Shown piece after piece: positions 215 through 24,599 of a stretch of DNA of 32,245 bases. The stretch covers positions 1-32,245 of the forward strand of contig JAFVGS010000028.1 of NCBI GenBank assembly GCA_017474845.1. Reading direction: 5' to 3'. The notes under the pieces are model-generated. The model was not told the DNA's origin. It ran no database searches and worked only from the letters and a program-made list of their open reading frames with translations. Made by a program: the position numbers and the translations under genes. Positions within the stretch are counted from its first letter, which is position 1; each line of letters opens with the position of its first letter. This DNA comes from Prevotella sp. GTDB taxonomy: Bacteria > Bacteroidota > Bacteroidia > Bacteroidales > Bacteroidaceae.

Positions 215-2647
215 ATGAACAAAAACAGACTTTTCCTTGTGCTGGCGTCGCTGCTCGTGTTCGCCTTACTGCCTGTCCAGGCCACCAAGGTCCTGGGGCT
301 CCGTGTCATCGACAAGAACTACCTCATGGTACACTTCCGCGACGGCGAGGTGCACTATCGCGACAACGGTACAGGCCCCAGTGCCTATCTCGGACATTCC
401 TTCTCCGAGGGCGATGACACGCTGGTGGTCTTTGGCGAACGGCTGAAGACGACAGAGGCGCAGAAAGCGGAGCTGTGGTTTATAGAGGAAAGTGGAATGA
501 GATTCCAGCCCGTGAAGGTGTGGCGGAAGTCGAAGCCGATGAATATTGATCATACGCTTACTGGCGAATGCGACCACTGGCTGTTCCTTCAGTTGCCACA
601 AGAGATGAAGCAGGGGCGTACGTATACGATTATTATACCAGAGGGTATTGGGGTTGATCAGACCACCCCTAACCCCTCCTACTCAGGAGGGGATACGAGG
701 CAGACAGTCAGTGTCACATACGACATCTGGAACACCCCGTCTGAGGCCGTCCATGTGAACATCATCGGCTATATGCCCTCAGAGGCCCTCCATGCCGCAG
801 ACCTTTACCAGTGGCTGGGCGACGGCGGACAGCGCGACTACTCCTCGTGGGTGGGGCGTAAAGTATACCTCTATAATGTCAATACAAAGAAGAAGCAGAG
901 TGCCGGTGTGGTGAAGTTCTGGAAGAAGGCTTCCGATGCCGAGCAGGAGGCAGGCAAGAAGAACCTCGTGGGCACCGATGTCTGGAACATCGACTTCCGT
1001 GGTACGGCTCCTGGACGCTATCGTCTCGTGGTGGAGGATGTAGGCTGCTCGATGGACTTCGACATAGCCAATGATGTCTATTACCAGCCCTATCGCTATT
1101 CCGTGCGTGGCTACTACTACATGCGTCTCGGCGAGCCCAAGGATCCTGAGCATGTGTGGCCCGTGCCTCGTCAGCCGCAGTTCATCCCAGAGACCGATCC
1201 CAAGGGCCTCACCGTGTATAAAACCGATTTCCATCCCTTCATGCAAGAGTGGAAGGACTTGCATACGGACGTGTGGGACGAGCCTCACTTCAAACCCGCT
1301 CTTGCTTCACGTTTCTGGCAGCATCGTCTGCCCGGCAACCCCGTGAATATCGAGGTGAAGGGTGGTCATTCGGACGCCTTCGACTGGGACCGCCATCTGG
1401 CCCATGTCAGCAATATCTACGACATGCTGCTGCCCTACATCCTCTCCGGTGGACGACTTTCTGACGATAACCTCGGCATTCGTGAGAGTGGCAACGGCAT
1501 CCCCGACATCATCGACGAGGCCCGCAACGAGGTGGACTTCTTCCTCTCCATCCGCGATGGCGAGGGCTATTCTCAGGGAGTCACCAACCCCGACCTCAGC
1601 TGGACGGTGATGTATCAGGCAGGCTGTACCACGATGGCTGCCTGGGCCAATGCCGCCAACTGTGCCATCACCGCAGAGGCGTTCAGGATAATGGAAAATG
1701 AAAAATGGAAATTGGATCATTCCATTGACTCGCTGAAGCGCTACTATACTGCCGAGGCCATCAAGGCCTTCCGCTATGCCTCCAAGCAGGAGTGGAACCA
1801 GCTCGACGACCTGCAGGACATCGGCTCGATGCAGATGCGTGGCCGTGATTTCCGTCAGCTGGCCGCCGCCTTCCTCTATAATGTCACGGGCGACACCGAG
1901 TGGGAGGACATTTTCGTACGGGATTCGGAGATCAAGGGTCCGCAGTCGCAGGTGTTCAGCAAGCGTGATCACGGCTTCTTCGGTGTGGGCGTGATGCATG
2001 CCGAGAACCAGAACGTCGTGCCCTTCTGCCAGATCTGGGCAGCAGCGGCCTATCTCACCTGTCCGCAGACGCGCCACTATGCCGAGCTCTATCAGAACCT
2101 CAAGTCGAGCATCAATGCACAGGCTGAGAGTTATAACATCGGCCACATGGCCAAGCGACCCTCGCGACGCAGTGCCAATGACAGCCGCTGGCAGGTGTCG
2201 CAGAACCTGCAGCTCGTGATGCTCGCCCATTACATCGCCGACAAGGCCCGCAAGCGTGAACTCGAACATGTGATGCTTACGGAAGCCAGCTGGAGCCTCG
2301 GACGTAACCCCGGCAACATCGTTGAAATGACAGGTCTGGGTGAGCGTCATATTACCGACTGCTACACCACCGGCCGCAACGACGGCGCCCCAGAGTGCCA
2401 TCCCGGACAGACGCCCTTCAATGGCACCGAAACATGGTCGCCAAGTCATAACGGCGGCGATGCCCGTGTCTTCCTGAAGTACTGCTATCCGGCCTGGACT
2501 GTTGAGAATGGTATTCAGACTACCACTTGGCCCCGTCAGGAGTCCTACTTCAACCAGCGTTACTTCTGGGTGAACGGTGAGTTCACGCCCCGTGAGACTA
2601 TGCGCGGCAAGATGGCCCTCCTCGGTTATCTCTATGCCATCCGGTAG
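215..2647 (+). CDS. glycoside hydrolase family 9-type enzyme (cellulase-like), secreted
   Basis: An 810-residue protein with an N-terminal signal peptide (MNKNRLFLVLASLLVFALL...QA), so it acts in the periplasm or on the surface. Roughly residues 25-290 look like the N-terminal Ig-like part common in GH9 enzymes. The catalytic (alpha/alpha)6 part follows from about residue 300, with GGHSDAFDWD (D387 and D390, the position of the GH9 catalytic-base Asp pair) and ESGNGIPDIIDEAR, a strong GH9 signature. The C-terminal NGEFTPRET segment (E789 or E794) is where the catalytic acid should lie, but it differs from the usual NEVA-type motif, so substrate preference may differ from classical endoglucanase. 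GH9 enzymes cleave beta-1,4-glucans, including xyloglucan backbones. The coding sequence carries two repeat-like insertions (673-692 and 1688-1715). The next gene starts 36 nt downstream and is probably co-transcribed. Confidence 0.85.
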   Translation: MNKNRLFLVLASLLVFALLPVQATKVLGLRVIDKNYLMVHFRDGEVHYRDNGTGPSAYLGHSFSEGDDTLVVFGERLKTTEAQKAELWFIEESGMRFQPVKVWRKSKPMNIDHTLTGECDHWLFLQLPQEMKQGRTYTIIIPEGIGVDQTTPNPSYSGGDTRQTVSVTYDIWNTPSEAVHVNIIGYMPSEALHAADLYQWLGDGGQRDYSSWVGRKVYLYNVNTKKKQSAGVVKFWKKASDAEQEAGKKNLVGTDVWNIDFRGTAPGRYRLVVEDVGCSMDFDIANDVYYQPYRYSVRGYYYMRLGEPKDPEHVWPVPRQPQFIPETDPKGLTVYKTDFHPFMQEWKDLHTDVWDEPHFKPALASRFWQHRLPGNPVNIEVKGGHSDAFDWDRHLAHVSNIYDMLLPYILSGGRLSDDNLGIRESGNGIPDIIDEARNEVDFFLSIRDGEGYSQGVTNPDLSWTVMYQAGCTTMAAWANAANCAITAEAFRIMENEKWKLDHSIDSLKRYYTAEAIKAFRYASKQEWNQLDDLQDIGSMQMRGRDFRQLAAAFLYNVTGDTEWEDIFVRDSEIKGPQSQVFSKRDHGFFGVGVMHAENQNVVPFCQIWAAAAYLTCPQTRHYAELYQNLKSSINAQAESYNIGHMAKRPSRRSANDSRWQVSQNLQLVMLAHYIADKARKRELEHVMLTEASWSLGRNPGNIVEMTGLGERHITDCYTTGRNDGAPECHPGQTPFNGTETWSPSHNGGDARVFLKYCYPAWTVENGIQTTTWPRQESYFNQRYFWVNGEFTPRETMRGKMALLGYLYAIR
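673..692. repeat. hairpin repeat CCCCTCCT/AGGAGGGG inside the GH9 gene
   Basis: A perfect 8-bp inverted repeat with a 4-nt loop (ACTC), preceded by CCACCCCTAA, lies in frame in the GH9 coding region and encodes roughly TTPNPSYSGGD (residues 149-159). The composition and symmetry look unlike the surrounding coding sequence and suggest a dispersed repeat absorbed into the gene at a loop of the N-terminal beta-sandwich part. Confidence 0.6.
1688..1715. repeat. degenerate 7-bp tandem array inside the GH9 gene
   Basis: Four consecutive heptamers, ATAATGG, AAAATGA, AAAATGG and AAATTGG, encode about IMENEKWKLD (residues 492-501) in the catalytic part. The tract is A-rich against a GC-rich background. 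Confidence 0.55.
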
Positions 2648-6139: not shown

Positions 6140-8050
6140 TTATGCAAGGGGTAGCCGGATGATGAACCGGCTACCTTTTTCGTAGGTGGTGTCGAGGGTG
6201 ATGTCGCCGCCCATCAGACGGATGTATTGGCGGGAAACATAGAGTCCCATGCCGAGGCCTTCGGTGAAGGGATCCGACTTGTAGAAGTGGTCGAAGATGT
6301 GCGGACGGTCCTTTTCGGAGATACCGGGACCCTGGTCTTCGATGGCGAAGTTGATGGCGGCAGGTGTCTCGTAGACTGAGAGCTTGGTGGGACTGTTATC
6401 AGGGGCGAACTTCTTCGCGTTGAAGAGCAGCTCGTGTATAATATAATATAGGTGTATGTCTTGGACGCGCAGTAGGGTATCGTCGTCGACGGAGGTCTCG
6501 AAGATGAAGTTGCCGCCGTCGTAGGGCGGGAATATTGTAAAGGCCTGGATGGCTCTGCGTGCTATCTCGTTGCAGCTCACGATGTCATGATACTCTAGTT
6601 CCTGGGCAGTCTCGAGCCAGGAGGCGTCGTAGAGCATATACGCCATTCGTCGCAGTGAGAAGGCATTCTGTTCCATAGTGACCGTAATGTGTTTTTTCTC
6701 CTCTGGCGACAGGTTTTCGTGGTCGTTGAGGATGACCTGGAGGAAGCCGTGGATAATGTTCAATGGTGTCCGTATCTGGTGAGACATATCCTGCAGGAAG
6801 GCCACCTTTTGCTGACGTGCCGCCTGTGCCAGGTCATTAGCGCGCTGCAACTCGTGGTTGCGCTCCTCGGCCTTCTCGTGGGCCTGTTGCAGACGGGTGA
6901 TTTGTTCTGCCAGCGACTTCTGCATGGTGGAGAAACTGTTTTGTAGTTGGCCCACGAGGTCTGTCCTGGGTGTGCGGGCCATGGGCTCAGTGAAATGTCC
7001 GGAGGCGATACGGTGCGACTGGCTGACGAGCTGGTTCAGGGGTGCCACGAAACGAGTAATAGTGCGCATGAAGAACAGGAGCAGTAGAATCAGTCCGACG
7101 ATCAGCGCGGTGAAGATGATAAAGCCCAGACGGTTGTAATTGCCTAGGATGTCACGCTCGGGACAGATGAGGGCGATGTGCCATCCCGTCTGCTGTAGAG
7201 GCTGGAAGAATACATAGCAGGGTTCTCCGCCGATGTTCAGACGCATGTGGTCGTCGAAGCCAGAGAGTATCTTCTGCCCTAATACCTCCATTTCTGCCCG
7301 CTCGCCAGGGGCTGAGGCGCTGAAGATAGTGTGCTTCACCAGCTTCTCCGGATCGGGGTGAACGTAGTATCTGCCGTCGTGCCCCAACATGACGCTGTAG
7401 GAGTGAGGGTAGGGCTTCTCTCCGGAGATGGCCTTTGAGAGCCATGTCAGCGACAGGTCGGTGGAGATGACACCGATGAAGCGGCCTTTCTTGTCTTTGA
7501 GGGGCATGGAATAGGATACGATCATGTCCTCGTTGGAGAGGGTGCCGGCATTATAGTCGTCGAAGGGGTCTATCCAGCAGGGCTTTCCCTGGTCCTTGGC
7601 AGTCTTGTACCACACCTTCGAATAATAGTCATAATCACCCTCGCGCTGGGTGACGACGCTGTTGCCCTTTCTGACACTGTAGGCCGAGAAACGCCCCACG
7701 GCGGGAGGGTAGAAGTCGGGTTCCATGGTGATGGAACAGCCGTCGATGTCGGATCCGAATGTCACGATACGGTGTGTGTATGCCAGAAGGCTGTCGGGAG
7801 TCTGATCCTGGTTGACGATCCACTTGACATTCTCCGTGACGGCCTCAATATCTGAGAGATAACCTGCGACGCGGAGAGCGGTCTTGTCGAGTACCTTCCC
7901 GGCGCGCTCCATGGCCTCTTGCTTTACCAGCTGACGGGAGCGGTTGTAGAGCAGTCCTACCGAGACGACGAAGAGCACGACGACAAAAGAGATGATGGTG
8001 ACACCGAGTTTCAGTGAGAGGGAGTGACGGTGGAATCCGATCTGACTCAT
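6140..8050 (-). CDS. Cache-HAMP sensor histidine kinase (complete), fourth gene of the sensor operon
   Basis: A 636-residue inner-membrane kinase. There is a TM helix at about 16-35, then a periplasmic Cache-type domain to about 305 (VWYK...GKPCW and SYSMPLKDKKGRFIGV are typical), TM helix 306-328, HAMP 329-385, coiled coil and HisKA with MSHQIRTPLN (H424 phospho-acceptor). The HATPase domain runs to the end (N-box HELLFNAKKF, G1 DQGPGIS, G2 GLGMGLY). It should autophosphorylate in response to an extracytoplasmic small ligand and pass phosphate to a response regulator not encoded here. Its ATG overlaps the upstream partner's stop by 4 bp, indicating translational coupling. Its last codons form the hairpin that probably terminates the convergent GH97 operon. 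Confidence 0.92.
   Translation of the reverse strand: MSQIGFHRHSLSLKLGVTIISFVVVLFVVSVGLLYNRSRQLVKQEAMERAGKVLDKTALRVAGYLSDIEAVTENVKWIVNQDQTPDSLLAYTHRIVTFGSDIDGCSITMEPDFYPPAVGRFSAYSVRKGNSVVTQREGDYDYYSKVWYKTAKDQGKPCWIDPFDDYNAGTLSNEDMIVSYSMPLKDKKGRFIGVISTDLSLTWLSKAISGEKPYPHSYSVMLGHDGRYYVHPDPEKLVKHTIFSASAPGERAEMEVLGQKILSGFDDHMRLNIGGEPCYVFFQPLQQTGWHIALICPERDILGNYNRLGFIIFTALIVGLILLLLFFMRTITRFVAPLNQLVSQSHRIASGHFTEPMARTPRTDLVGQLQNSFSTMQKSLAEQITRLQQAHEKAEERNHELQRANDLAQAARQQKVAFLQDMSHQIRTPLNIIHGFLQVILNDHENLSPEEKKHITVTMEQNAFSLRRMAYMLYDASWLETAQELEYHDIVSCNEIARRAIQAFTIFPPYDGGNFIFETSVDDDTLLRVQDIHLYYIIHELLFNAKKFAPDNSPTKLSVYETPAAINFAIEDQGPGISEKDRPHIFDHFYKSDPFTEGLGMGLYVSRQYIRLMGGDITLDTTYEKGSRFIIRLPLA
6150..6180 (+). 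terminator. intrinsic terminator of the GH9/GH97 operon, inside the 3' end of the convergent kinase gene
   Basis: A perfect 9-bp stem (GGTAGCCGG/CCGGCTACC, loop of 8) is followed by five T residues on the plus strand, 26 nt after the GH97-esterase stop. The same bases encode the conserved GSRFIIRLP end of the kinase ATPase domain on the other strand, so the sequence does two jobs. Confidence 0.7.
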
Positions 8051-9516
8051 GGCTTACCTCCTTCCTTTACCGATACCAGCAACAGACGGTCGAGCAGCTC
8101 TGTGACGATGTCTGTCTCTGTGTGTATCTTTTGGGCCAGCTGTTTGGCTTCCTGATGGTCCATGTGGTGAAAGTCCTTATGTGCTTCGCTGACAATGTCC
8201 TTGATGTTGATGGCGGGCTGCAGCAGCTGGTCTGAGAGGTTTATCAGGAAGGCGTTCATCGCGCGTTCCGCCTGCTGGGCCTGTTCGGAGGCTTCCTGAA
8301 GAACAGCGTTGCTGTCTTCCAGTTGGTCGTTCATCTGTCGGATGTCGTCTATGCGGCTGGAGATGGACTGCTGCATGGCCTTGAAGCTTCGTTGCAGCGA
8401 GCCGATCTCATCAACACGTTTCGTGTCGGGCACATAGTCGTCATAGTGACCCTCAGAGAGTCGACGGGCTGTCTGTGCCAGGAGAATGAGAGGCTTGACG
8501 GACTTGCTGATAAAGAAGATACAGAACAGGAGCAGGGCAATCAGTCCGACGAAGGCTATCAGAAGTACGGTGGCCAGCAGCCTGGTGCTTGTACCCATGA
8601 TTTCACTTTCCGGGCAGACAATGGCAGCTATCCATCCTTTATAGCGGAACGGCTTGTAGAAGACATAGCTCGGCACGTCGTCGATGTCCACTTCCTTATA
8701 GCCGCTCTCTCCAGACATCATCGATTCGAGCAGCATCTCCATCTTCGTGTCGCGTTTGGGACCGTTGATCAGTTCGAACACGTTACGCCTGTTCATCTTC
8801 GTTGAGTCGGGATGTACGATATACCCTCCTTGGCGGCCGATGATCGAACAGTAGGAGCGGGGGAAAGGCTTCGTGTTGTTGATGAAGCCCGAAAGCCAGT
8901 TGAGTGGGATGTCCAGGCCTAAAATGCCAACCACTTTCCCTTCGCTGTCGTGGACGGGGAGGCTGTAGGTGGCGGGCTTCACGCTGTATTCGCCTTGCTC
9001 ATAAGGTCTCACCCAGTTGGCTTCGCCGTTTTCCATAGGAATGGTGTACCAGCTCTGCTCTAAATAGGATGTCTCGTCGTAGTGGTCGCTCTCAAGAATC
9101 TCTGACTGCTGTGTCGGGGAACCGCCGTCGATTGCTTTGCGGTAGGTATAGATAATGAACTCCCGATGGAAATAGGCAGTGTCCATGGCGATGGCGCAGC
9201 CGATAAGCGCAGGGTTATCTTCTACCATCTTCCTGCAGTCGCGGCTCAGGGCCTTAGGATCATCTAGATGACGCTCCATGTTCCATCCCACCATCCTTCC
9301 TGTCACCTCCACATTCCTCAGAACATTGTCGATACTAAGTCCCATACAATCGAGCGTCTCACTGGCCTTCGCCAATGCTTCTTCCTTCACGGCCTGGTGA
9401 GAGAAGTGATACATGACCGACAGCGTGGCAACAATCAGGATAGCTACAAACGTGACGACCCAGAGGCTCAGACGGACGGACATCCTGTTGCGTATTATCT
9501 TCAGTATCTTGGACAT
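8047..9516 (-). CDS. truncated Cache-HAMP sensor with pseudo-HisKA (His to Asp), third gene of the sensor operon
   Basis: 489 residues: TM helix about 16-36, Cache-type periplasmic domain to about 308 (SWYT, NWVRPY and YSLPVHDSEGKVVGI present), TM helix 312-334, HAMP to about 390, coiled coil, then a region that aligns with the HisKA helices of the neighbouring kinase. FLINLSDQLLQPAINI lines up with FLQDMSHQIRTPLNII, so the acceptor His is Asp429 while the following Pro is kept. The protein ends after the second helix and has no ATPase domain. It cannot autophosphorylate; its dimerisation helices suggest it pairs with the kinase translated from the overlapping next gene. The upstream kinase gene ends 4 nt before its start. 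Confidence 0.85.
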   Translation of the reverse strand: MSKILKIIRNRMSVRLSLWVVTFVAILIVATLSVMYHFSHQAVKEEALAKASETLDCMGLSIDNVLRNVEVTGRMVGWNMERHLDDPKALSRDCRKMVEDNPALIGCAIAMDTAYFHREFIIYTYRKAIDGGSPTQQSEILESDHYDETSYLEQSWYTIPMENGEANWVRPYEQGEYSVKPATYSLPVHDSEGKVVGILGLDIPLNWLSGFINNTKPFPRSYCSIIGRQGGYIVHPDSTKMNRRNVFELINGPKRDTKMEMLLESMMSGESGYKEVDIDDVPSYVFYKPFRYKGWIAAIVCPESEIMGTSTRLLATVLLIAFVGLIALLLFCIFFISKSVKPLILLAQTARRLSEGHYDDYVPDTKRVDEIGSLQRSFKAMQQSISSRIDDIRQMNDQLEDSNAVLQEASEQAQQAERAMNAFLINLSDQLLQPAINIKDIVSEAHKDFHHMDHQEAKQLAQKIHTETDIVTELLDRLLLVSVKEGGKP

Positions 9517-9520
9517 GCTG

Positions 9521-11464
9521 CTATTTGATCTTTGGCAGTTCTATGATCATTCGACAACCGTTATTGTAGGTCTCGTCGATGAATACATCTCCACCGAGGT
9601 TGTGGATATGGCGTCTGGCCAGCGCAAGTCCGAGTCCGAGGCCTTCGGAGAGGTCGTTTACCTTCGTGAACATCTCGAACATGCGTTCGCATTCCTTCTT
9701 GGGGATGCCGGGGCCTTCGTCCTGTACGATGAAGCGAATCTTCGACAAGTATTCCGTTACCCTGAGCCATGCATAGCCGCCCGTGGAATGGTTGGCGGCA
9801 TTGATGAGCAGTTCGCGGACGCTCAGCATCAGGTAGTGGTGGTTGGCACTGATAGAGAAATCATCGGGAAGATCGACGGTGAGTCTGAAGTCGATGTCGG
9901 GATAGTTCTCCCTGGCTTTGGCGATGCTCTCCTGAGCCACCTCCAGACATGACACCTCCTCGTTCTTGCTTGCATAGAGTTCCTGAGTGACACCCCTGGC
10001 GGAACAGTCGGCGAGCATGAGCACCATCCGGTTGAGTAACACAGCATTGTGGCGCATCATGTCGGTAATTTTTTTGGCCTCTTCGTCTGGCATGAGGCCC
10101 TTGCTCTCTTTCAGGATCTGCGCGAAGCCCATGATGATGTTCAAGGGTGTGCGGATCTGATGTGACACGTTCTGGATGAACAGCGTCTTCTGCTGGCTGG
10201 AGGCTTTCGCCAGTTCGCTGGTATGCACCAGTTCCTCGTTACGGCGCGAGGCCTCTTCGTTCATCTGTCGGATCTCGTTCACGTGATTGTTGAGTGAATC
10301 CTGCATCGCGGCGAAACTGTTCTGCAGACGTCCCACGACGTCGTTAGTCGGACTTCGTGGTATCTGTTGGTCGTAGTGTCCTTGGGCAATGCGATGCAGG
10401 TTGCCTGTCAGTTTGTTCAGCGGATGGATGGCATGGGCCACGGTGACACTGCTGAACAGCATAACGAGCAGGAGACCGATGAAAAAAAGCGGCGCGATAA
10501 TATAGTTCATCCGGTTGTAACACCTGAGGATGCTTCTCTCCGGACTGACGAGAGCGAGGCTCCAGTTGGTGCCGGGCACTGCCTGATAGCTGACGAGGCA
10601 CTGCTCTCCGTTGCTCCTGACGCTCATGCTGCCTGTCTTGCCTGTGGTCATCTCATGTCCCAGGGCGAAGATGTCAGCATTCTCGCGGGGGTTGGCGTCG
10701 CTGTAGATGGTGTTGGTGAAGAGTTGCGCCGTATCGGGATGGAGGAAGTAGCGGCCTTCATCGCCTGTCATCATGAAGTAGGAACCCTCGTAGGGCGTCT
10801 CTGAGGTGATAACTTTCGAGAGGCGTATCAGTGAGAGGTCGGTGGAGATGACACCCACGAATTGCTTCTCGTCGTTGTACAGAGGCTTGCTGTAAGAGGC
10901 GATCATGCCGTCGAGGGTGAGGGATAGGGAGTCACTCTCGTCGTAATAGACCACCCAGCAGGGCTTTCCCTGGAGGTGTGGCGTCTTATACCATACCTTC
11001 TCGAAATACTCATAGGGTTCTTCGATGACGGTGGTGATGGTGTCTGATTCCCGGACGGTGTAGGCCGAGAAGTTCCTGCCGTATTTTGGGAAGATGTTAG
11101 GCTCGGTGCTGATGGAACAGCCGTCGATATGTCCGTTGAGCACGACGATACTGCGCGAGATGGCCAGGAGGGAATCTGGCTGCAGATTGGCCGTTGCTTC
11201 CCAGTCGTTGACGTCGGTGGCCGTCTCCACGATGTCCATAAAGCGTGTGATATGCTGCATGGTGGTGTTCACCACGCTGGCAGCATGTTCAGTGGCTTCT
11301 TTCTTCACCTTCTCCCTCGAATGGATGAAGAGGAAACCTATGGAAAGGGCAAAGATGGGTATGGCCATGAGCAGGATGCCCAGGCTGAGCTTCCAGGATA
11401 GCGATTGGCGGATATGTCGTATTATATTATTATCCATTTGTCCATTCCTTGATTCGTTATCCAT
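9521..11464 (-). CDS. Cache-HAMP sensor histidine kinase (complete), second gene of the sensor operon
   Basis: 647 residues from the ATG at 11464, or 638 from an ATG at 11437. The latter (MDNNIIRHIRQSLSWKL) matches the N termini of its paralogues better and has AAGGA 8 nt upstream. TM helix about 27-46, Cache-type domain with VWYK and GKPCW, TM helix 322-342, HAMP, HisKA with NVSHQIRTPLN (H435), and HATPase with RELLINAANH, DEGPGIP and GLGLGLALA. Overall it is a close paralogue of the kinase at 6140-8050. The 11464 start overlaps the stop of the upstream truncated sensor by 8 bp, and that junction lies in a 7-8-bp repeat array, so the first nine residues may be repeat-derived. Confidence 0.9.
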   Translation of the reverse strand: MDNESRNGQMDNNIIRHIRQSLSWKLSLGILLMAIPIFALSIGFLFIHSREKVKKEATEHAASVVNTTMQHITRFMDIVETATDVNDWEATANLQPDSLLAISRSIVVLNGHIDGCSISTEPNIFPKYGRNFSAYTVRESDTITTVIEEPYEYFEKVWYKTPHLQGKPCWVVYYDESDSLSLTLDGMIASYSKPLYNDEKQFVGVISTDLSLIRLSKVITSETPYEGSYFMMTGDEGRYFLHPDTAQLFTNTIYSDANPRENADIFALGHEMTTGKTGSMSVRSNGEQCLVSYQAVPGTNWSLALVSPERSILRCYNRMNYIIAPLFFIGLLLVMLFSSVTVAHAIHPLNKLTGNLHRIAQGHYDQQIPRSPTNDVVGRLQNSFAAMQDSLNNHVNEIRQMNEEASRRNEELVHTSELAKASSQQKTLFIQNVSHQIRTPLNIIMGFAQILKESKGLMPDEEAKKITDMMRHNAVLLNRMVLMLADCSARGVTQELYASKNEEVSCLEVAQESIAKARENYPDIDFRLTVDLPDDFSISANHHYLMLSVRELLINAANHSTGGYAWLRVTEYLSKIRFIVQDEGPGIPKKECERMFEMFTKVNDLSEGLGLGLALARRHIHNLGGDVFIDETYNNGCRMIIELPKIK

Positions 11465-11469
11465 TGTCC
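11429..11469. repeat. degenerate 7-8-bp array spanning a stop/start junction in the sensor operon
   Basis: On the minus strand, successive ATGGAC/ATGGAT-like units cover the last codons of the truncated sensor (KDNG) and the first codons of the kinase (MDNESRNGQMDNN). The units resemble the ATGGACA/ATGGATA array at 4548. The array supplies both the stop codon and two candidate start codons. Confidence 0.55.
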
Positions 11470-12809
11470 TTGATCTTCTCCGACTCGGCGATGAGTTGGT
11501 TCAGCAGTGCCGTTACCTTCTCGCCCCGTAGTTGTATGCCATCCACCAGTTGGCAAGTCTCCTCTTCCGTCAGCTGGTTGTCTGACTGGCTGATGGTCAG
11601 CACACGTTGGCGGATGCCGTCCACAGGTGACATCATCTGGTCTGACATGTTATAGAGGAAGTTCGTTTTCATGCGTTCTGCTGCCTGGGCCTGCTCGTAG
11701 GTCGTCTGCAGCTCCTCACCGCGCTGTTTGAGTGTCGCCATCAGCTGGCTCATCTCTCCCATACGGGTGGCAAGTGACTGCTGCATCTCACGGAAGTGGT
11801 TCTGCAGGCGTCCCACTTCGTCTTGTCTTCTGCTGTACTGGATGGATTCCTGATAGTCCCCCTCTGCTATACGCTGTGCCGACCTCTCCAGTGTCCTCAG
11901 AGGCAACAGCTGGCGGCGGATGTAGAAACGGCACGACAGGAAAAGCAGCAGCAGTCCGATGACGGCGATGATGAGTACGGTATAAAGCAGATGGTTGTAG
12001 TCACCGAAGATGTCTTCCTCAGGATAGACGATGCCGGCACTCCATCCGAGTCTCGACATGGCGCGCCCCGTCACTTCGGCACGCTCAAAGGGCCTGTAGA
12101 ACACGTAGTAGTCCTCGCCGTTGAGATTAAAGTACTTATAGCCTGTCTCTCCATTCAACATGGCTTGTGCGGCTTCTGCCATCGAGGGGTGGCCGTCTTT
12201 GACGAATTCGAGGATGTTCTTGTTCAGTGCCGTGCTGTCTGGATGGACGATGACCGTGCCGTCGTTCTTCAGCAGCGTGCAGAAGGAATTGGGTGAGGGC
12301 TTGGCGTCGAGCAGGATTTTGGAGATGAGTGTCAGCGATACGTCAACATCCATCACGCCCACTTTCCGCATCTTGTCGAAGAGGGGAAGACGGAAGGTAG
12401 TGATAGCTGTGACGTTCTTCTCCTCGGGGTCGATCCATCCGGTGAAGATGGAGTCGGCAGCAGTACTGTCATTATCCCAGGTGATGGAGCAATCGGTGAT
12501 GTAGGGTGTCGTCTCCACCAGCTTGCGGGTGTAAACCTCCAACTTTTCGGGCTGGTGGATATGGGGCAGCATCTTCCAGTAGATATTGCCGGAGGACTGC
12601 TCCACTTTCAGCAGGATATTGTCGATGCGCTGTATGGTTGCCTCCAGTGTCTGGCTGGCATCCTGAAGGGCTTCTTCCTTAACGGCCTTCCGCGAAAAAA
12701 CAAAGATGATCAGCAAAGCCACCAACAGGAGTGTTGCCAGCGCCACGATGACTGCCAGACTCAGTCTGAAAGACAAGGTCCTGGTGATTAACCTCGGTAG
12801 TTTAGCCAT
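11457..12809 (-). CDS. truncated Cache-HAMP sensor with pseudo-HisKA (His to Asp), first gene of the sensor operon
   Basis: I place the start at the ATG at 12809 (MAKLPRLITRTLSFRLSLAV, 450 residues): it aligns with the paralogues and lies just after a promoter box, whereas longer in-frame starts run through the promoter region. TM helix about 16-38, a shortened periplasmic Cache-type domain that lacks the WY...GKPCW stretch of the other three proteins, TM helix 275-296, HAMP and coiled coil. Then comes a HisKA-like segment, FLYNMSDQMMSPVDGI, in which Asp390 replaces the acceptor His. There is no ATPase domain; the protein ends after the second DHp-like helix. The pairing with the next complete kinase repeats what is seen at 8047-9516 and 6140-8050. 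Confidence 0.83.
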   Translation of the reverse strand: MAKLPRLITRTLSFRLSLAVIVALATLLLVALLIIFVFSRKAVKEEALQDASQTLEATIQRIDNILLKVEQSSGNIYWKMLPHIHQPEKLEVYTRKLVETTPYITDCSITWDNDSTAADSIFTGWIDPEEKNVTAITTFRLPLFDKMRKVGVMDVDVSLTLISKILLDAKPSPNSFCTLLKNDGTVIVHPDSTALNKNILEFVKDGHPSMAEAAQAMLNGETGYKYFNLNGEDYYVFYRPFERAEVTGRAMSRLGWSAGIVYPEEDIFGDYNHLLYTVLIIAVIGLLLLFLSCRFYIRRQLLPLRTLERSAQRIAEGDYQESIQYSRRQDEVGRLQNHFREMQQSLATRMGEMSQLMATLKQRGEELQTTYEQAQAAERMKTNFLYNMSDQMMSPVDGIRQRVLTISQSDNQLTEEETCQLVDGIQLRGEKVTALLNQLIAESEKIKDNG

Positions 12810-12817
12810 ATCTGCGG

Positions 12818-12825
12818 CAAATATA
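12818..12825 (-). promoter_or_regulatory. -7 promoter box (TATATTTG) of the sensor operon
   Basis: TATATTTG on the minus strand matches TAnnTTTG and is only 8 nt from the ATG at 12809, so the transcript would have almost no leader. No good TTTG -33 element is seen. Confidence 0.55.
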
Positions 12826-14955: not shown

Positions 14956-17310
14956 ATGAAGAGGTATCTGTTCCTATTCGCCGCCTGCCTCACGACTGTC
15001 GCAGGGCTGGCACAGCCAGACGTGAAGATAGAGTTCTTCACGCCAAGTATCGTTCACATCGTGAAGGGTCAGCCTACGAAAAGCCTGGTGATTACCGCCA
15101 AGCCTGAGCAGGTGGAGGTCATACACCAGGGCAACACTTGGAAAAGCAGTGAACTCATTGTCAAGTATGATCCTGCCATGATGAGTTTTACGTTCTGCAC
15201 CGCTAAAGGCCGTGTGCTTCTGCGTGAACAGGGGTGGAGCACCATCCGGCAGAACCTGGAAGAGTTCAAGGTGAGCCAGACATTCCTCCTCGACAAGGAT
15301 GAGGCCATCTACGGCCTCGGCACCATCCAGAACGGTAAGATGAATCGTCGTGGGGAGCACAAGCGCATGGAACAGTCTAACCTCGAGGATTTCCAGAATG
15401 TCTTGCAGTCCGTGAAAGGCTGGGGTCTCTACTGGGAGAACTATTCACCCACGCAGTTTGATGACGATGCCAACGGCATGACCTTCACTTCCGAGGCAGG
15501 CAGTGGCATCGACTATTACTTCATGTACGGCGGCTCTGCCGATGGCGTCATTGCACAGATGCGTCACCTTTCTGGCGATGTGCCTATGTTCCCCCTTTGG
15601 ACCTATGGCTTCTGGCAGTCGAAGGAACGCTATAAGAGTGCTTCTGAGACGGAGAGCATTGTCGACCAGTACCGTGCCCTACAGGTGCCCCTCGACGGTA
15701 TCATTCAGGATTGGCAGTACTGGGGCTCCAACTACCTGTGGAACGCGATGGACTTTCTCTCTGAGGAGTTCACCACGGGTCCGCAATTGATACAGAACGT
15801 CCATGCAAAGCACGCCCATTTCATGATCTCCATCTGGGCGAGCTTCGGCCCGCAAACACAGCAGTTCCGTGAACTCAATGAGAAAGGTCTACTGCTACCC
15901 ATCGAGACATGGCCGCAGAGTGGACTCTCCCATATATGGCCCCCCCGCATGGACTACCCCTCAGGCGTGAAGGTCTATGATGCTTTCAGTCCCGTGGCCC
16001 GTGACATCTATTGGAAACATCTGAAGCGACTCTATGACTACGGCACCGATGCCTGGTGGATGGACTCTACGGACCCCGACTTTTTCAATCCCCGTGAGTC
16101 TGACTATGCTCATCAAGTCACTGGCGGCACCTGGCGTCAACTGCGTAATGCCTTCCCCTTGGAAACAGTGAGGGGTGTATATAACTCCCAGCGCAGAGTC
16201 GGGGAGGAAAAGCGGGTCTTCATCATGACACGCTCTGCCTTTGCTGGCCAGCAGCACTACGGCTCAAACATGTGGAGCGGCGATGTCAATTCCTCATGGG
16301 ACATGCTTCGCAAACAGGTACCCGCAGGACTGAGCTTCTCGCTGACGGGCGATCCTAACTTCAACACCGATATCGGCGGTTTCTTCTGCAACGCTTACAA
16401 CACCCATGGCCCTGGTTCTGCCCCCAAGAACCCGCAGTTTCAGGAGCTCTACGTGCGCTGGATGCAGTACGGGCTCTTCTGTCCTGTATTCCGCAGCCAT
16501 GGTGCTGATGCCCCCCGTGAGATCTGGCAGTTTGGCAAGAAGGGTGAACCCGTCTATGATGCGATAGAAAAGCAAATTCGCCTGCGTTACAGACTGATAC
16601 CGTATTTATACAGTACTGCCTGGCAGGTGACTTCCAACAACGAGAGCTATCTCCGTCCGCTGTTCAGCGACTTTGTCCAAGATCGTCGTGTGTGGGACAT
16701 CGCTGATGAGTTCATGTTCGGACGCAGCATCCTCGCCGCTCCCATCCTCGACCCTCAGTACACGGAGGAGAAGATTGTCCGCACGGATGCCATGACGGGG
16801 TGGGATAGGAAAAAGGAGTCAAGAGACAGTAGTCAGGAGACAGTCGTGGATTGGAATGAAACGAAGACTACCACGAAATATTTGCCGAAGGGTGCGACAT
16901 GGTACGACTTCTGGACGGGGAAGTCCTATAAGGGTGGACAGACCGTCACCCTTGATACCACTCTCGACCGTGTGCCGATGTTCGTCCGTGCAGGCAGCAT
17001 CCTCCCTCTCGGCCCTGAGATGCAGTATGTAGGTGAAAAGTCTTGGGACAACCTCGAACTGCGCCTATATCCTGGAGCAGACGGCACCTTCACACTCTAT
17101 GAAGACGAAGGCGACAACTACAATTACGAGAAAGGCTACTATGCCACCATCACCTTCCAGTGGAATGATAAGTCCCGCCAACTCACTATTGGTACTCGTC
17201 AGGGTGGTTATAAGGGCATGATACTCGACCGTAAGTTCACCATCGTTCTCCCTGATGGCACCTCACGCACCGTTTCCCACGACGGCAACGAGCAGATCAT
17301 CCAGCTGTAA
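14956..17310 (+). CDS. glycoside hydrolase family 31 (alpha-xylosidase or alpha-glucosidase), secreted
   Basis: 784 residues with a signal peptide (MKRYLFLFAACLTTVAGLAQ). An N-terminal beta-sandwich is followed by a TIM barrel from about residue 205 (MFPLWTYGFWQSKERY) with nucleophile WWMDSTDPD (D370) and acid/base WSGDV (D443), then C-terminal beta-sandwich domains. GH31 enzymes remove terminal alpha-linked glucose or xylose. FWQSKERY followed by an IIQDWQYWG segment fits the alpha-xylosidase-like bacterial group, which would suit xyloglucan side chains, but the sequence does not prove this. A surface loop at residues 620-631 is encoded by a 7-bp repeat array (16814-16848). It lies 10 nt after the dehydrogenase stop in the same operon. 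Confidence 0.9.
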   Translation: MKRYLFLFAACLTTVAGLAQPDVKIEFFTPSIVHIVKGQPTKSLVITAKPEQVEVIHQGNTWKSSELIVKYDPAMMSFTFCTAKGRVLLREQGWSTIRQNLEEFKVSQTFLLDKDEAIYGLGTIQNGKMNRRGEHKRMEQSNLEDFQNVLQSVKGWGLYWENYSPTQFDDDANGMTFTSEAGSGIDYYFMYGGSADGVIAQMRHLSGDVPMFPLWTYGFWQSKERYKSASETESIVDQYRALQVPLDGIIQDWQYWGSNYLWNAMDFLSEEFTTGPQLIQNVHAKHAHFMISIWASFGPQTQQFRELNEKGLLLPIETWPQSGLSHIWPPRMDYPSGVKVYDAFSPVARDIYWKHLKRLYDYGTDAWWMDSTDPDFFNPRESDYAHQVTGGTWRQLRNAFPLETVRGVYNSQRRVGEEKRVFIMTRSAFAGQQHYGSNMWSGDVNSSWDMLRKQVPAGLSFSLTGDPNFNTDIGGFFCNAYNTHGPGSAPKNPQFQELYVRWMQYGLFCPVFRSHGADAPREIWQFGKKGEPVYDAIEKQIRLRYRLIPYLYSTAWQVTSNNESYLRPLFSDFVQDRRVWDIADEFMFGRSILAAPILDPQYTEEKIVRTDAMTGWDRKKESRDSSQETVVDWNETKTTTKYLPKGATWYDFWTGKSYKGGQTVTLDTTLDRVPMFVRAGSILPLGPEMQYVGEKSWDNLELRLYPGADGTFTLYEDEGDNYNYEKGYYATITFQWNDKSRQLTIGTRQGGYKGMILDRKFTIVLPDGTSRTVSHDGNEQIIQL
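16814..16848. repeat. degenerate 7-bp tandem array inside the GH31 gene
   Basis: Five heptamers (AGGAGTC, AAGAGAC, AGTAGTC, AGGAGAC, AGTCGTG) encode about ESRDSSQETVVD, just before the conserved KYLPKGATWYDFWTGK segment. The units resemble the CAGGAGT array at 2774. Confidence 0.65.
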
Positions 17311-17353: not shown

Positions 17354-19009
17354 ATGAACAAAAGATCATTCCTGAGGCTTTTTGCCTTACTTTTCACTTT
17401 TCACTTCTCACTTCTCACTTCCTTCGCTGAGGACTACGAGACTCTCAACACCGAGCCCATCAAGAATCCCATGCTTTGGGCAGACGTCCCTGATCCTGAC
17501 GTGATCCGAGTGGGCGACACGTTCTATCTCGTCTCCACCACCATGCACCTTATGCCTGGAGCACCCGTTATGGCCTCGAAGGACCTGAAGAATTGGGAGA
17601 CCGTCGGCTATATCTTCGATCGTCTCACTGATTCGCCGAAGTATGACTTGCAGGAAGGTACCGTCTATGGCCGCGGACAGTGGGCCACCTCGCTGAAGTA
17701 TCATAATGGTAAGTTCTATGCCCTCCTGGCTCCCAACGAGCAGGGTGCCATGGGCGACACATATATCTTCTCCGCAGAAAAGGCCGAAGGCCCCTGGGAA
17801 CTTGTCTCCCGCATGCGCCACTTCCACGACTGTTCGCTGTTCTTCGACGATGATGGACGTGTCTACGTCATCTATGGCACGGGCGAACTGATGGAGCTCA
17901 AGCCCGACCTCTCCGACGTCATCGAGGGTACTCACATGAAGATCTTCGAACGTGAGGAAGACGAGAAAGGCCTTCTTGAGGGCTCGCGCGTCATTAAGAA
18001 AGACGGCAAATACTATCTGCTGATGATTTCCCACGTCTATGCCCCTGGCAAGCACCGCCGTGAGGTGTGTTACCGTGCCGACGACATCCACGGCCCCTAT
18101 GAGAAGCAGGTCATCCTCGAGAGTGAGTTCGGTGGTTTCTCGTACGAAGCTCAGGGCACTATCGTCGACAGCCCCTCCGGCGACTGGTACGGCATCATCT
18201 TCCAGGACCGTGGCGGTGTGGGTCGTGTGCTCACCGTCATGCCCTGCCGTTGGATCAACGGCTGGCCGATGCTTGGCGATGAGAATGGTAAGGTGCCCGA
18301 CACCGTACGTCCTTTCGTCAGTGGACAGCCAAAGGCAGCTATCGTGAAGAGCGATGATTTCTCTGATCCGAAACTTGGTCTCCACTGGCAGTGGAACCAC
18401 AATCCCATCGATGCCGCCTGGAGTCTCACTGAGCGCCCAGGCTTCCTCCGCTTGAAGACCAATCGTGTGGTCAACACCCTCTACCTCGCCCCCAACACAC
18501 TCACCCAGCGCATGGAGGGTCCTCAGTGCTCGGGCTCTGTCGTCATCGACTGTGCGAAGATGAAGGATGGTGATTGTGCCGGTATGGCTGCTTTCAATAG
18601 TGATACGGGCGCTCTGGTTATCAAGAAGAAAGGCAAGAAGTTCTCCCTCCAAATGGTGGAAATGACCTGTCAGCTCTCTGAGCGTGAAAAGGCTGTGACC
18701 AGCTTCGAAGAGAAGGTCATCGAGGAGATTCCTCTCACTTCGTCGAAGATATGGCTACGCATTGATGCCGACTTCCGCCCTGGAACCGGCACGGGTATGC
18801 GACGCTTTGGTGGTGCAGACTGCGCTAACTTCTCCTATAGTCTCGATGGCAACACGTGGGCGAAGATCGGCACAGGGGACTATCGCCTCGGCTTTGACTG
18901 GCGCCGCTTCTTCATGGGCACCAAGTTTGGCATCTTCTGCTACGCTACAAAAAAGGCAGGTGGATATGTCGATATCGACGAGTTTTGCTATGAAAGAGCC
19001 GAAAAATAG
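17354..19009 (+). CDS. glycoside hydrolase family 43 (subfamily 12-like) with C-terminal beta-sandwich, secreted
   Basis: 551 residues. The signal peptide includes the hydrophobic stretch LFTFHFSLLTSFA, encoded by a 7-bp repeat. The five-bladed propeller (about 35-320) has DVPDPDVIR (D47 base), HFHDCSLFFDDDG (D159) and LLEGSRVIKKDGKYYLL (E209 acid). Residues about 330-551 form a second beta-sandwich typical of GH43_12-like enzymes. Expected activity is alpha-L-arabinofuranosidase or beta-xylosidase on oligosaccharide side chains. With GH31 and GH9 this resembles the set found in xyloglucan loci of Bacteroides, which is established for that genus but only inferred here. Last gene of the four-gene operon, 43 nt after GH31. 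Confidence 0.88.
   Translation: MNKRSFLRLFALLFTFHFSLLTSFAEDYETLNTEPIKNPMLWADVPDPDVIRVGDTFYLVSTTMHLMPGAPVMASKDLKNWETVGYIFDRLTDSPKYDLQEGTVYGRGQWATSLKYHNGKFYALLAPNEQGAMGDTYIFSAEKAEGPWELVSRMRHFHDCSLFFDDDGRVYVIYGTGELMELKPDLSDVIEGTHMKIFEREEDEKGLLEGSRVIKKDGKYYLLMISHVYAPGKHRREVCYRADDIHGPYEKQVILESEFGGFSYEAQGTIVDSPSGDWYGIIFQDRGGVGRVLTVMPCRWINGWPMLGDENGKVPDTVRPFVSGQPKAAIVKSDDFSDPKLGLHWQWNHNPIDAAWSLTERPGFLRLKTNRVVNTLYLAPNTLTQRMEGPQCSGSVVIDCAKMKDGDCAGMAAFNSDTGALVIKKKGKKFSLQMVEMTCQLSEREKAVTSFEEKVIEEIPLTSSKIWLRIDADFRPGTGTGMRRFGGADCANFSYSLDGNTWAKIGTGDYRLGFDWRRFFMGTKFGIFCYATKKAGGYVDIDEFCYERAEK
17390..17422. repeat. CTTTTCA/CTTCTCA heptamer array encoding part of the GH43 signal peptide
   Basis: Two CTTTTCA units, two CTTCTCA units and a partial CTTCC run without interruption and encode LFTFHFSLLTS, the hydrophobic core of the signal peptide. 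A related array in the same plus-strand sense lies at 27286-27331. Confidence 0.8.
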
Positions 19010-22063: not shown

Positions 22064-22807
22064 TTATTTGTAGTTGCGGACGCGGACGTCGATGCCGCTT
22101 CCTGCAAGAGCCATGGATATCTTGTGCACTGGGGTGTCGTTGTAGTGATAGGGAAAGAGCACCCTGGGCTTAATGATCTTTGCAGCGTTGACTACCTGGT
22201 CGACGGTCATCGTGTAGGGCTGGTTACAAGGCAGGAATGCCACGTCGATATCCTTGATGTCTGCCATCTCGGGGATATCCTCCGTGTCGCCGGCGATGTA
22301 GATGCGGAATCCGTCGAGGGTGAGGATATAGCCGTTGTCACGTCCTTTGGGGTGGAACTCCTCGCGTCCGGGGGTCGTGTTGTAGGCTGGCACTGCCTCG
22401 ATGATGATGTCTGCGGCATATTTGCGCTGTTCGCCGTTCTGCATGACAAGACCGTTGCGGAAGTGTCCATAGACGGCCTGGTTCACGTAGATGCTCGTGG
22501 CCGGTGTGCGGATCTCGTGGATGGCGGCACGGTCGAAGTGGTCTTTATGCTCGTGGGTGACGAGGATGATGTTGGCCTTGGGGAAGGTGGCATAGTCGGT
22601 CTCGGGCTTGAGCCACATACCCACGGGATCTACTTGGATCTCGACGCCGTTGTAGTTGATTTCCATGCTGGCGTGCTTGATGCAGGTAATGGTGATTTTC
22701 TTACCACTCTTGGTAGTGAACTCGTCAGTCTTCAGCTGGGCTGAAGCGGTGAGTGCAAAAAGGAATGTGAATAGCAAGGCAATGGACCTTAAAGAAGATT
22801 TTTTCAT
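22064..22807 (-). CDS. secreted metallo-beta-lactamase-fold hydrolase
   Basis: 247 residues with a signal peptide (MKKSSLRSIALLFTFLFALTASAQ). Metal-binding motif THEHKDHFD gives H85, H87, D89 and H90. FHPKGRDNGYIL (H152), AGDTED (D174) and FPYHYND (H221) complete a UPF0173-like binuclear-metal site. This subgroup (COG2220-like) is distinct from true beta-lactamases and its substrate is generally unknown. It is probably periplasmic. It follows the TPR histidine kinase by 34 nt on the same strand and may be co-transcribed; the gap contains a heptamer array. Confidence 0.85.
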   Translation of the reverse strand: MKKSSLRSIALLFTFLFALTASAQLKTDEFTTKSGKKITITCIKHASMEINYNGVEIQVDPVGMWLKPETDYATFPKANIILVTHEHKDHFDRAAIHEIRTPATSIYVNQAVYGHFRNGLVMQNGEQRKYAADIIIEAVPAYNTTPGREEFHPKGRDNGYILTLDGFRIYIAGDTEDIPEMADIKDIDVAFLPCNQPYTMTVDQVVNAAKIIKPRVLFPYHYNDTPVHKISMALAGSGIDVRVRNYK

Positions 22808-22820
22808 TTTGTTTGAGTAT

Positions 22821-22855
22821 TTAATGATTAATGTTCAATGTTCAATGCTCAATCT
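22821..22855. repeat. five tandem heptamers at the end of the TPR kinase gene
   Basis: TTAATGA, TTAATGT, TCAATGT, TCAATGC and TCAATCT run without gaps. The minus-strand stop codon and last residues (QIEH) of the kinase lie inside the array, so the array defines its C terminus. Confidence 0.75.
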
Positions 22856-24599
22856 GCTTGAAGGGTAGTGTGAGGACGAAACGGGCGCCGAGGATATAGT
22901 TGGTGTCGAGGGTGAGGATACCGCCCAGCTGTTCGGCGAGCTTGCGGCTCAGAGGGAGTCCGAGCCCGATGCCCTGCTTGAAGGAGTCGAGCTTGACGAA
23001 GCGCTCGAAGATGTTTTCCGCCTGATCTGCGGGAATGCCGCAGCCAGTGTCCTCGACGGTGAGGATGAGTGTCTGTGCGACGGTCCTGGCCTTGAGGGTG
23101 ACGCTGCCCTTTTCAGTGTTCTTGAGGGCATTGTCGGTGAGGGCACTCAGGATGCGGTAGAGCATGTTCCTGTTGGTGGCGAAACTGAACTCAGGATCGA
23201 GTTCACTGTCGACGCGGAGGGTCACCTGCGGCTGGACATTGTCTTCATAGTCGGCGACGACGCTCTCGAGCAGTTGGTTCACCTTGACGATATCATCTTT
23301 GACCACGTTGGTGGAACTCTCTATGAGCGAGAGGCCGATGATCTCGTCGATGAGGTTTGTGATCTGCAGGGCACTCTTCTGCATCATTGTGGCCATGTGC
23401 TGCCGCTCCTCGTCGCTCTCGGTAAGGGTGGGGTCGGCGATGACCTGCGAGAAGCCGCTGATGATGTTCAGGGGCGTGCGCACCTCGTGGCTGACATTCT
23501 GGATGAAGCTTGTCTTCATCTTGTCCGACTCGAGGGCGTGCTGGTAGGCGGCATGGAGCTGCTTCAGATGACGGCGGCGGGAGTTGAAGAGGTAAGCCAG
23601 CAAACCCACGAGTACACCCAGCAGACAGACGATGATGCTGAGGGTGATGAGGCGGATGCGGGCGGCTTTACGTTCTGCGTCGTAGACGATCAGCTCGTCG
23701 CGGATGCCCTCCATGCTGTTGGAGAGCACCACATTGTTCACGGAGTCATTGGCCTCGAAGGCTTTCCGCTGGGCGTTGAACGCCTCTTCCCACCGTCCTG
23801 CCTTCTGGTAGATCTGTGTGATGGCGTCGTAGCCGTCTTCGTTGAACTCCTTCTCTGCAAGAGCGACGGCCTCGTCTGTCTTGCCTTGAGAGGCAAGGAA
23901 ATACACTTCGACCATGCGCCCGTGGACGGAGGTCTTGCCCATCTTCTCGCCGGCCTTGTAACGCTTGTAGCCTTCGAGGAACCGGGGCATGTCGCCGTCG
24001 TTGAAGTAGGCCAGGGTGCGACGCGTCTCAATATCGAACACGCGTTCCGGGGCGTACTTCTCTGCAATCTCCTTGGCTCGTGCGAGCAGTTCAAGAGCCT
24101 CCTGCGGATTGTCGCCCATCTCCACATTGACAATGTTCATATAGATGGGTGGCATGTTCTCCCAGTAGCCTTCCTGTTCCATCAGCTCAATCACCTTCTC
24201 GAAATTCTGTTTGGCGGCATCGCGGTTACCGCAGATACGGTTGATGTGGCCCTGCATATTGTAGGCCATATACATCTCCTTGTCGATTTTCTTTTCGCGG
24301 AGTTCTGCCGAGAGCTGACGGGCGAGTTTGTAGGCCTCATAGATCTTCTGACGGTTCATGAGGAACACGATCTCGTTGCAGCGCTGGTTGTAGTAGCCGT
24401 GTACGTCCTGCTTGTCGAGCAGATACTTCTCCAGAGCCTTGACGGCAGGGAAGAACTTGGCGGAGTCACCCTCGTTGAAAGTACGGGTCATAGCTTCGCG
24501 CAGGGCCTTGTATTCAGGCTCTTCCTTATAGTCTTGCGCCTGGGTGGAGGCATGCATGAAGACCGTCAGTATCAGGGTCAATAGCAGAACTCTTGTCAT
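22842..24599 (-). CDS. TPR-containing sensor histidine kinase
   Basis: 585 residues: signal peptide (MTRVLLLTLILTVFMHASTQAQ), a periplasmic helical region with TPR-like repeats (about 25-310), one TM helix (about 316-338), a short coiled coil, HisKA with NVSHEVRTPLNII (H371), and HATPase with ALTDNALKNT, DTGCGIP and GIGLGLPLS. This is a common Bacteroidetes kinase design in which the TPR part senses a periplasmic protein or peptide. No response regulator adjoins it. The HisKA core is close to those of the 6-12 kb kinases (FIQNVSH...RTPLNII). The final residues derive from a heptamer array. Confidence 0.9.
   Translation of the reverse strand: MTRVLLLTLILTVFMHASTQAQDYKEEPEYKALREAMTRTFNEGDSAKFFPAVKALEKYLLDKQDVHGYYNQRCNEIVFLMNRQKIYEAYKLARQLSAELREKKIDKEMYMAYNMQGHINRICGNRDAAKQNFEKVIELMEQEGYWENMPPIYMNIVNVEMGDNPQEALELLARAKEIAEKYAPERVFDIETRRTLAYFNDGDMPRFLEGYKRYKAGEKMGKTSVHGRMVEVYFLASQGKTDEAVALAEKEFNEDGYDAITQIYQKAGRWEEAFNAQRKAFEANDSVNNVVLSNSMEGIRDELIVYDAERKAARIRLITLSIIVCLLGVLVGLLAYLFNSRRRHLKQLHAAYQHALESDKMKTSFIQNVSHEVRTPLNIISGFSQVIADPTLTESDEERQHMATMMQKSALQITNLIDEIIGLSLIESSTNVVKDDIVKVNQLLESVVADYEDNVQPQVTLRVDSELDPEFSFATNRNMLYRILSALTDNALKNTEKGSVTLKARTVAQTLILTVEDTGCGIPADQAENIFERFVKLDSFKQGIGLGLPLSRKLAEQLGGILTLDTNYILGARFVLTLPFKQIEH

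Follow-up and report, generated by a model that had tools for sequence, protein, structure and literature searches.

ATPase-less sensors paired with complete sensor kinases in Prevotella: a conserved two-gene system and its probable action as a heterodimer

Most descriptions of sensor histidine kinases present them as homodimers, and the published kinase-pseudokinase pairs that we found are single cases. The nearest described case is FasB/FasC of group A Streptococcus, in which two co-encoded kinase-like proteins are reported to form a heterodimer in two-hybrid assays; FasC holds the required His, has a dispensable kinase domain and is a proposed pseudokinase, and the regulator FasA is encoded at the same locus (PMC12675982). 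Here we analyse a minus-strand operon of four genes in a DNA stretch of 32,245 nucleotides from Prevotella sp. (assembly GCA_017474845.1, contig JAFVGS010000028.1; hereafter the window, meaning the whole stretch). Sensors without an ATPase domain alternate in it with complete kinases in the order T1-K1-T2-K2, where T stands for a protein with dCache, HAMP and dimerization and histidine phosphotransfer (DHp) domains that lacks the ATPase domain, and K for a complete HisKA kinase. Judged by gene order across genomes, T-K pairs are a conserved two-gene system.

FasB/FasC resembles the T-K pairs in having co-encoded partners, one of which can do without a kinase domain. It differs in that T naturally lacks both His and ATPase while K has the His, and in that the T-K loci contain no regulator gene; a Fas-like arrangement, in which T carries the His and the partner with the ATPase has Gln, was seen in one pair (L068; loci are cited by our own numbers). 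Next in closeness are RocA, a ChrS variant and RetS/GacS. RocA is a membrane pseudokinase that contacts CovS; it does not need its His, and complementation is reported for a form deprived of the catalytic domain (PMC7028121). It is a single accessory protein with six transmembrane (TM) helices serving one system, whereas T is a dCache-HAMP protein, paired 1:1 with K in a large family. The ChrS pseudokinase variant has lost its catalytic domain and heterodimerises with the related complete kinase HrrS (PMC9491836), but it is a laboratory-evolved frameshift, whereas the T-K pairs are a natural paired family. In RetS/GacS one sensor kinase modulates another, RetS reportedly inhibiting GacS autophosphorylation (PMC5992135); both are complete multidomain kinases, unlike T, which has neither an ATPase nor a receiver domain. 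For the K proteins without His, the nearest likeness is DivL, in which Tyr replaces His and which regulates without kinase activity, with weak ATP binding reported (PMC4211667). DivL is a single protein with a catalytic and ATP-binding (CA) domain, whereas T lacks that domain and the His-less K proteins keep the usual ATP-site residues. In none of the compared systems, in the portions available, is one partner truncated by nature and tied 1:1 to its kinase throughout a clade. The pairs also differ from the hybrid two-component systems (HTCS) of Bacteroidetes glycan loci, which carry a receiver and an AraC-type output in the same chain, as K1 and K2 end with HATPase_c and show no further output domain in Pfam. 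The literature searched, with subscription journals mostly outside it, yielded no description of the T-K pairs of Prevotella.

The operon and its four proteins

T1 shares 8 bases with K1, a gap of 4 bases separates K1 from T2, and T2 and K2 overlap in the sequence ATGA (Table 1). The first-pass annotation of the window placed the system at 8047-12809, an interval that covers T1, K1 and T2 and omits K2 (6140-8050). The open frame of T1 spans 12953-11457 (-), and its start is most likely the ATG at 12809, giving 450 residues, because the sequences of relatives start at residue 49 of the longer open reading frame (ORF) and because the preceding 48 residues align with none of the other three window proteins. 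Counted from this ATG, the Asp is residue 390, in agreement with the number in the first-pass annotation.

In the alignment, T1 and T2 have the motifs SDQMMSP and SDQLLQP where the kinases have SHQIRTP. Asp390 of T1 (codon 11642-11640) and Asp429 of T2 (codon 8232-8230) thus stand where K1 has His435 (codon 10162-10160) and K2 has His424 (codon 6781-6779); the Pro five residues past the acceptor position is kept in both T proteins, each of which terminates 60 residues past the Asp. The alternation of ATPase-less sensor and kinase, the two Asp residues in place of His and the retained Pro had all been read from the letters in the first-pass annotation, and ORFs, Pfam and the alignment bear this out.

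K1 and K2 have the hallmarks of HisKA kinases, an acceptor His and an HATPase_c domain with the N, G1, F and G2 residues, both of which T1 and T2 lack. Pfam matches to dCache_1, HisKA and HATPase_c lie above the cut-offs in both kinases, with HAMP of K1 slightly below its cut-off, and the ATP-site residues E551, N555, D582, G584, F599, G608, G610 and G612 are conserved in the K alignment. T1 and T2 match HAMP and dCache_1 (dCache of T1 below its cut-off) and have no Pfam HisKA or HATPase_c match at E<=1; nor does T carry an output domain of its own according to Pfam. Both nevertheless have, by way of their family profile, the two-helix hairpin homologous to kinase DHp domains: the profile built from 80 T proteins matches the DHp domains of solved kinases (7z8n, 9.6e-10; 2c2a, 2.4e-8), and the predicted model of T2 contains both DHp helices, at residues 432-447 and 454-486, with a predicted local distance difference test score (pLDDT) of about 65-82 there. 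In structural comparisons with this model, double-Cache sensors were among the matches and the DHp part was barely covered.

Distribution, co-inheritance and selection

In a kinase-side scan of named genomes, in which the best 80 of 582 confirmed stretches were taken, a same-strand T lies directly upstream of the kinase in 80/80 loci, the T of L141 being in two pieces. Twenty further loci from the genus, mostly kinases for which the T2 search had given no T, held 19 kinases, all with a T (that of L200 runs off the contig and that of L202 is split), and one ATPase-less pair. These two sets are the fair tests of pairing, because many other loci were found via T. Over all loci, each of the 172 kinases (K-profile score above 400 bits plus an ATPase) is paired with a T, 131 overlapping it and 41 at 0-50 bp, with none beyond; the commonest spacings are -4 (n=56) and -8 (n=36), and 14 overlaps of more than 60 bases are probably start errors, because the first possible start of each ORF was taken. 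The adjacency of a full kinase to T anticipated in the first-pass annotation is thereby found from the kinase side as well as overall. Seen from T, 167 of the 170 T-type ORFs are accompanied by a kinase; the other three are a T whose kinase is off the contig, a split T and a 797-aa ORF that is no T. A 616-aa protein with kinase domains from genus g8 (L260:3464-5311) has no adjoining T and scores 298 with the K profile, below the 400-bit threshold; its acceptor position reads Lys, in the helix GKDIRTPIN. One genome may sit in both collections, and keeping kinases of less than 90% identity leaves 143 pairs.

K1 finds matches at E<=1e-90 in 45 of 150 genus genomes, ATPase-less relatives counted, in line with the earlier expectation that homologues would not be rare; T2 does so at E<=1e-60 in 49/150, some of the frames being about 800 aa long and sharing the sensor and HAMP only. 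By title, 79 of the best 80 kinase-side stretches are from Prevotella or Prevotellaceae and one from an uncultured Bacteroidales, and many come from the rumen or other ruminant gut sites. A family sample gave T-length matches in the genus of the window and in genera g10, g14, g19 and g21, with pairs confirmed in these. A search of 295 Bacteroidales genomes that scored no more than four candidates per genome gave full-length matches at E<=1e-120 only for the window's own kinases; three further matches covered profile positions 1-408 only. A plasmid search with K1 returned only distant kinases, with best identities of about 25%.

The T and K proteins fall on two sides of one tree. In the 86-row tree all T proteins, including the short ones of the ATPase-less pairs, form one side (Shimodaira-Hasegawa-like approximate likelihood ratio test, SH-aLRT, 100) and all K proteins with their ATPase-less relatives the other (99). 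The split is kept in a 105-row tree with more genera (T side 99; K side 90, below the 95 mark), in which identical subgroups recur on both sides and one phosphatase-like outgroup row sits at the base of the split. T and K distances correlate at r=0.83 over 137 pairs, with a maximum of 0.15 in 500 shuffles, and the nearest neighbour is the same in T and K for 78/137 pairs; the pair was therefore inherited and duplicated as a unit. Since the split predates both T1 and T2, they are not independent cases, and by this tree they inherited the state without His and ATPase. The suggestion that two diverged copies had independently retained the same substitution accordingly does not hold.

Purifying selection on T is as evident as on K: the median ratio of nonsynonymous to synonymous substitutions (dN/dS) is 0.12 in the DHp-like tail of T and 0.13 in the DHp domain of K, which agrees with the original view that function is retained. 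A T-specific Tyr at -19 occurs in 100 of 109 T proteins. One face of T helix 1 is conserved with a 100-degree period (P 0.002), as against P 0.35 for helix 1 of active K.

The acceptor position was compared in 137 pairs; of the 143, six were set aside, four because the motif missed the kinase and two because the T piece was short. T has N in 66, D in 55, T in 4, G and E in 3 each, S in 2, and K, H, R and I in 1 each; K has H in 125, L in 5, R in 3, Q in 2, and I and Y in 1 each. With the four missed kinases added back, 15/141 kinases lack the His, which is replaced by Leu, Ile, Arg, Gln or Tyr (L252-L255, L257 and L259 from other genera; L068, L072, L076, L079, L198, L199, L230, L239 and L256). 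Twelve of the 15 are intact at all ten ATP-site positions checked, the deviations being at K601 in L230 and L239 and at F599 and K601 in L076. In several pairs, for example L252-L255, L257 and L259, neither subunit has the canonical His, yet the ATP-site residues remain. On the 105-row tree, loss of His requires at least 3 changes among 42 K rows, and the Asp, Asn or other state in T at least 13 changes among 40 T rows. A His one helical turn ahead of the lost site is present in 89/137 T proteins and absent from T1 and T2; it could be a relocated acceptor. Both partners carry a His four residues before the lost site in L252, L253, L254 and L257.

Proposed asymmetric heterodimer and alternative explanations

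We hypothesize that T and K together make up a sensor kinase encoded by two genes, which probably acts as an asymmetric heterodimer, the sign of the effect being left open. T would add a second dCache sensor and one half each of the HAMP/coiled-coil stalk and of the DHp four-helix bundle, and K would bring its own dCache sensor, the acceptor His, the ATPase and the docking face for a response regulator. A signal on either sensor would travel via the common HAMP and DHp core and alter K autophosphorylation. The T:K dimer would phosphorylate the His within the K chain, since T supplies neither His nor ATPase; HK853 is among the solved kinases nearest to K (2c2a, 2.1e-35; best match 7z8n, 2.1e-40), and as a cis-phosphorylating kinase it would fit phosphorylation in cis. 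The phosphate would then pass to a response regulator encoded elsewhere, possibly common to several pairs. A selected part that is coupled to one kinase and has a conserved packing face makes sense as a half-bundle, and the heterodimers and dispensable kinase domain reported for FasB/FasC offer an analogy. A heterodimer adding a second ligand sensor, as had been proposed before, stands as the best reading; we infer the physical heterodimer, the sign of its effect, cis phosphorylation, the regulator and the ligands.

Several observations weigh against this heterodimer. Contact between T and K is deduced, and co-inheritance alone would also yield mirrored trees. Mutual information peaks at equal T and K positions, but the peak is identical with shuffled pairs and so reflects column make-up; a within-clade shuffle leaves only a weak excess of covariation, in the coil and helix 1, and at the T/K core positions no size covariation was found. 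K homodimers could be active. Moreover, the account cannot fit every member unchanged, because of the His-less kinases and because ten loci lack the ATPase altogether.

HAMP and DHp domains both homodimerise in known proteins, and T and K could be separate homodimers, loosely contacting or arrayed, with T signalling through HAMP contacts like a chemoreceptor. The best sensor matches of T do include ligand-binding domains of chemoreceptors, and the missing interface covariation points the same way. We consider this improbable, since T has no signalling tail past its DHp domain and since, unless a partner supplies the active face, it is difficult to see why selection would act on the packing face of the DHp domain only. 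A somewhat better case, although still an unlikely one in our judgement, gives T the role of a dedicated brake or phosphatase switch: K homodimers would be the active form, and mixed dimers with T, arising in one ligand state, would stop autophosphorylation or promote the phosphatase state. A mixed dimer would be catalytically poorer, with T lacking His and ATPase, and the data on pairing, co-inheritance and selection apply to a brake equally; GacS autophosphorylation is reportedly inhibited by RetS (PMC5992135), and RocA reportedly acts through CovS (PMC7028121). However, no free-standing kinase of the clade was found among the 172, and a 1:1 coupling of genes whose starts overlap is expected for subunits made in equal amounts, whereas a brake could use other ratios.

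That the Asp of T mimics a phosphorylated His and locks one state of the bundle, as the first-pass annotation had considered, is suggested by its presence in both window T proteins and in 55/137 overall. Asn is at least as common, however, and Thr, Gly, Glu, Ser, Lys, Arg, Ile and His also occur at a site that changes so often, which makes a phosphomimic highly improbable; we reject it as a general explanation and read Asp and Asn best as signifying that no acceptor is present here. By the first-pass annotation's own yardstick, lack of conservation, the idea about Asp fails, while the pair system stands. Least credible of all is decay, with the T genes read as kinases in degeneration. Catalytic domain and His are absent from them, and T is interrupted in L141 and split in L202, but their median dN/dS of 0.10-0.12 is not above that of K, a T lies beside every kinase examined, across five genera, and T-specific residues such as the Tyr at -19 are conserved. 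On the dN/dS values we reject decay.

The regulator that would receive the phosphate was sought with a profile from ten receivers in the pair loci (median length 13.6 kb). Only one receiver-domain (REC) ORF was found in 169 loci, 5.3 kb from the pair, so that a response regulator at the same locus, as in FasB/FasC, is lacking. Median identity in K is 0.71 in helix 1, 0.46 in the sensor, 0.36 in the coil and 0.38 in helix 2, and the likeness of helix 1 fits, without showing, one shared regulator.

An orphan single-domain response regulator occurs at L161:2539-2895 and in L207, L209-L211, L213, L214, L217 and L218. Its neighbours in several loci are, by our own reading, presumably sugar-transporter-like and arabinofuranosidase-like genes. 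Of the genus genomes, 41/45 kinase-positive and 19/105 kinase-negative ones contain it, but no association with the kinase is left when only the 67 genomes having any REC match are considered (Fisher P 0.68); it was found in 17/399 family-sample genomes at E<=1e-36 and, at E<=1e-20, in 0/10 genomes that carry pairs and belong to four other genera. Co-occurrence does not support it as the common partner, and it remains a lead.

Divergent relatives, genomic surroundings and significance

The ten loci with ATPase-less pairs are L063, L066, L067, L071, L073, L074, L075, L077, L080 and L205. Their short T proteins have 320-342 aa where complete, and two that were scanned have HAMP and no Cache domain. 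The second protein, of about 480-550 aa, has the His helix (HEIRTPLN in 8/10) and no ATPase; two that were scanned contain dCache, HAMP and HisKA. No significant ATPase remnant was seen in the 900 bases 3' of the ten pairs; in L067 an ATPase is present in a separate ORF of 1250 aa. Because these pairs group with the full pairs L200 and L201 on the tree, loss of the ATPase was probably a later event. We tentatively entertain the wider possibility, which we hold to be doubtful, that T and K function as the two parts of a split receptor kinase, obligately heterodimeric, whose diversification took place inside a single bacterial family, some members having moved past classical phospho-His chemistry.

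Relatives of about 330 aa lie upstream of pairs in L070, L072, L146, L152, L153, L156, L160, L192, L193, L195, L198, L199, L221, L230, L239 and L256, and a similar protein is found in L011 of the window's own genome. A scan of the one from L146 showed dCache but neither HAMP nor a kinase domain; these proteins are perhaps a third sensor subunit. In L115:3857-6631 the kinase ORF continues in a single frame into a GKRP-type SIS domain, giving 924 aa.

Table 1. Positions of the operon genes and of neighbouring features in the window (GH, glycoside hydrolase)
Feature	Position	Strand	Basis	Location
T1, ATPase-less sensor TM-dCache-HAMP-DHp, 450 aa (most likely start)	11457..12809	-	ORF list, Pfam, alignment	
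K1, complete kinase dCache-HAMP-HisKA-HATPase_c, 647 aa	9521..11464	-	ORF list, Pfam	
T2, ATPase-less sensor, 489 aa	8047..9516	-	ORF list, Pfam, predicted structure	
K2, complete sensor kinase, 636 aa	6140..8050	-	ORF list, Pfam	
TATATTTG, candidate promoter box resembling Bacteroidetes -7 box	12818..12825	-	printed sequence	just ahead of T1 start
GH9 gene	215-2647			one flank of operon
GH97-carboxylesterase fusion, 1146 aa	2684-6124			same flank as GH9
GH43 gene	17354-19009			other flank, with amidohydrolase and alcohol dehydrogenase

The candidate promoter box was likened to the Bacteroidetes -7 box, whose consensus is TAnnTTTG. On the GH43 flank, the ORF at 14956-17310 is presumably GH31-like, by our own reading of its sequence. 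A TPR-HisKA-HATPase kinase gene (22842-24599) precedes, on its own strand, the gene of a metallo-beta-lactamase-fold protein (22064-22807). No response regulator was seen among the window genes scanned; the source genome, 59% complete in 93 contigs, has 15 receiver and 25 HATPase_c matches.

The flanking genes of 70 non-redundant pairs, of which 69 upstream and 62/64 downstream neighbours were scanned, belong to mixed metabolism. Glycosidases beside pairs, among the matches listed, are GH53, GH43, GH20, GH127, GH31, melibiase/GH36, GH5 and arabinofuranosidase, and GH3, GH10, GH43 or CelD_N genes lie near some other pair loci. Given the plant-glycan enzymes beside some of them, the pairs may form a missing part of fibre sensing in Prevotella, a connection that is suggestive only.

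The built-in sensor/kinase pair exists in over a hundred diverged versions, some of which have lost the His or the ATPase. The family makes testable whether a histidine kinase can work with one active site, how two sensors may be merged in one bundle, and what role the ATP site would have after the loss of His.

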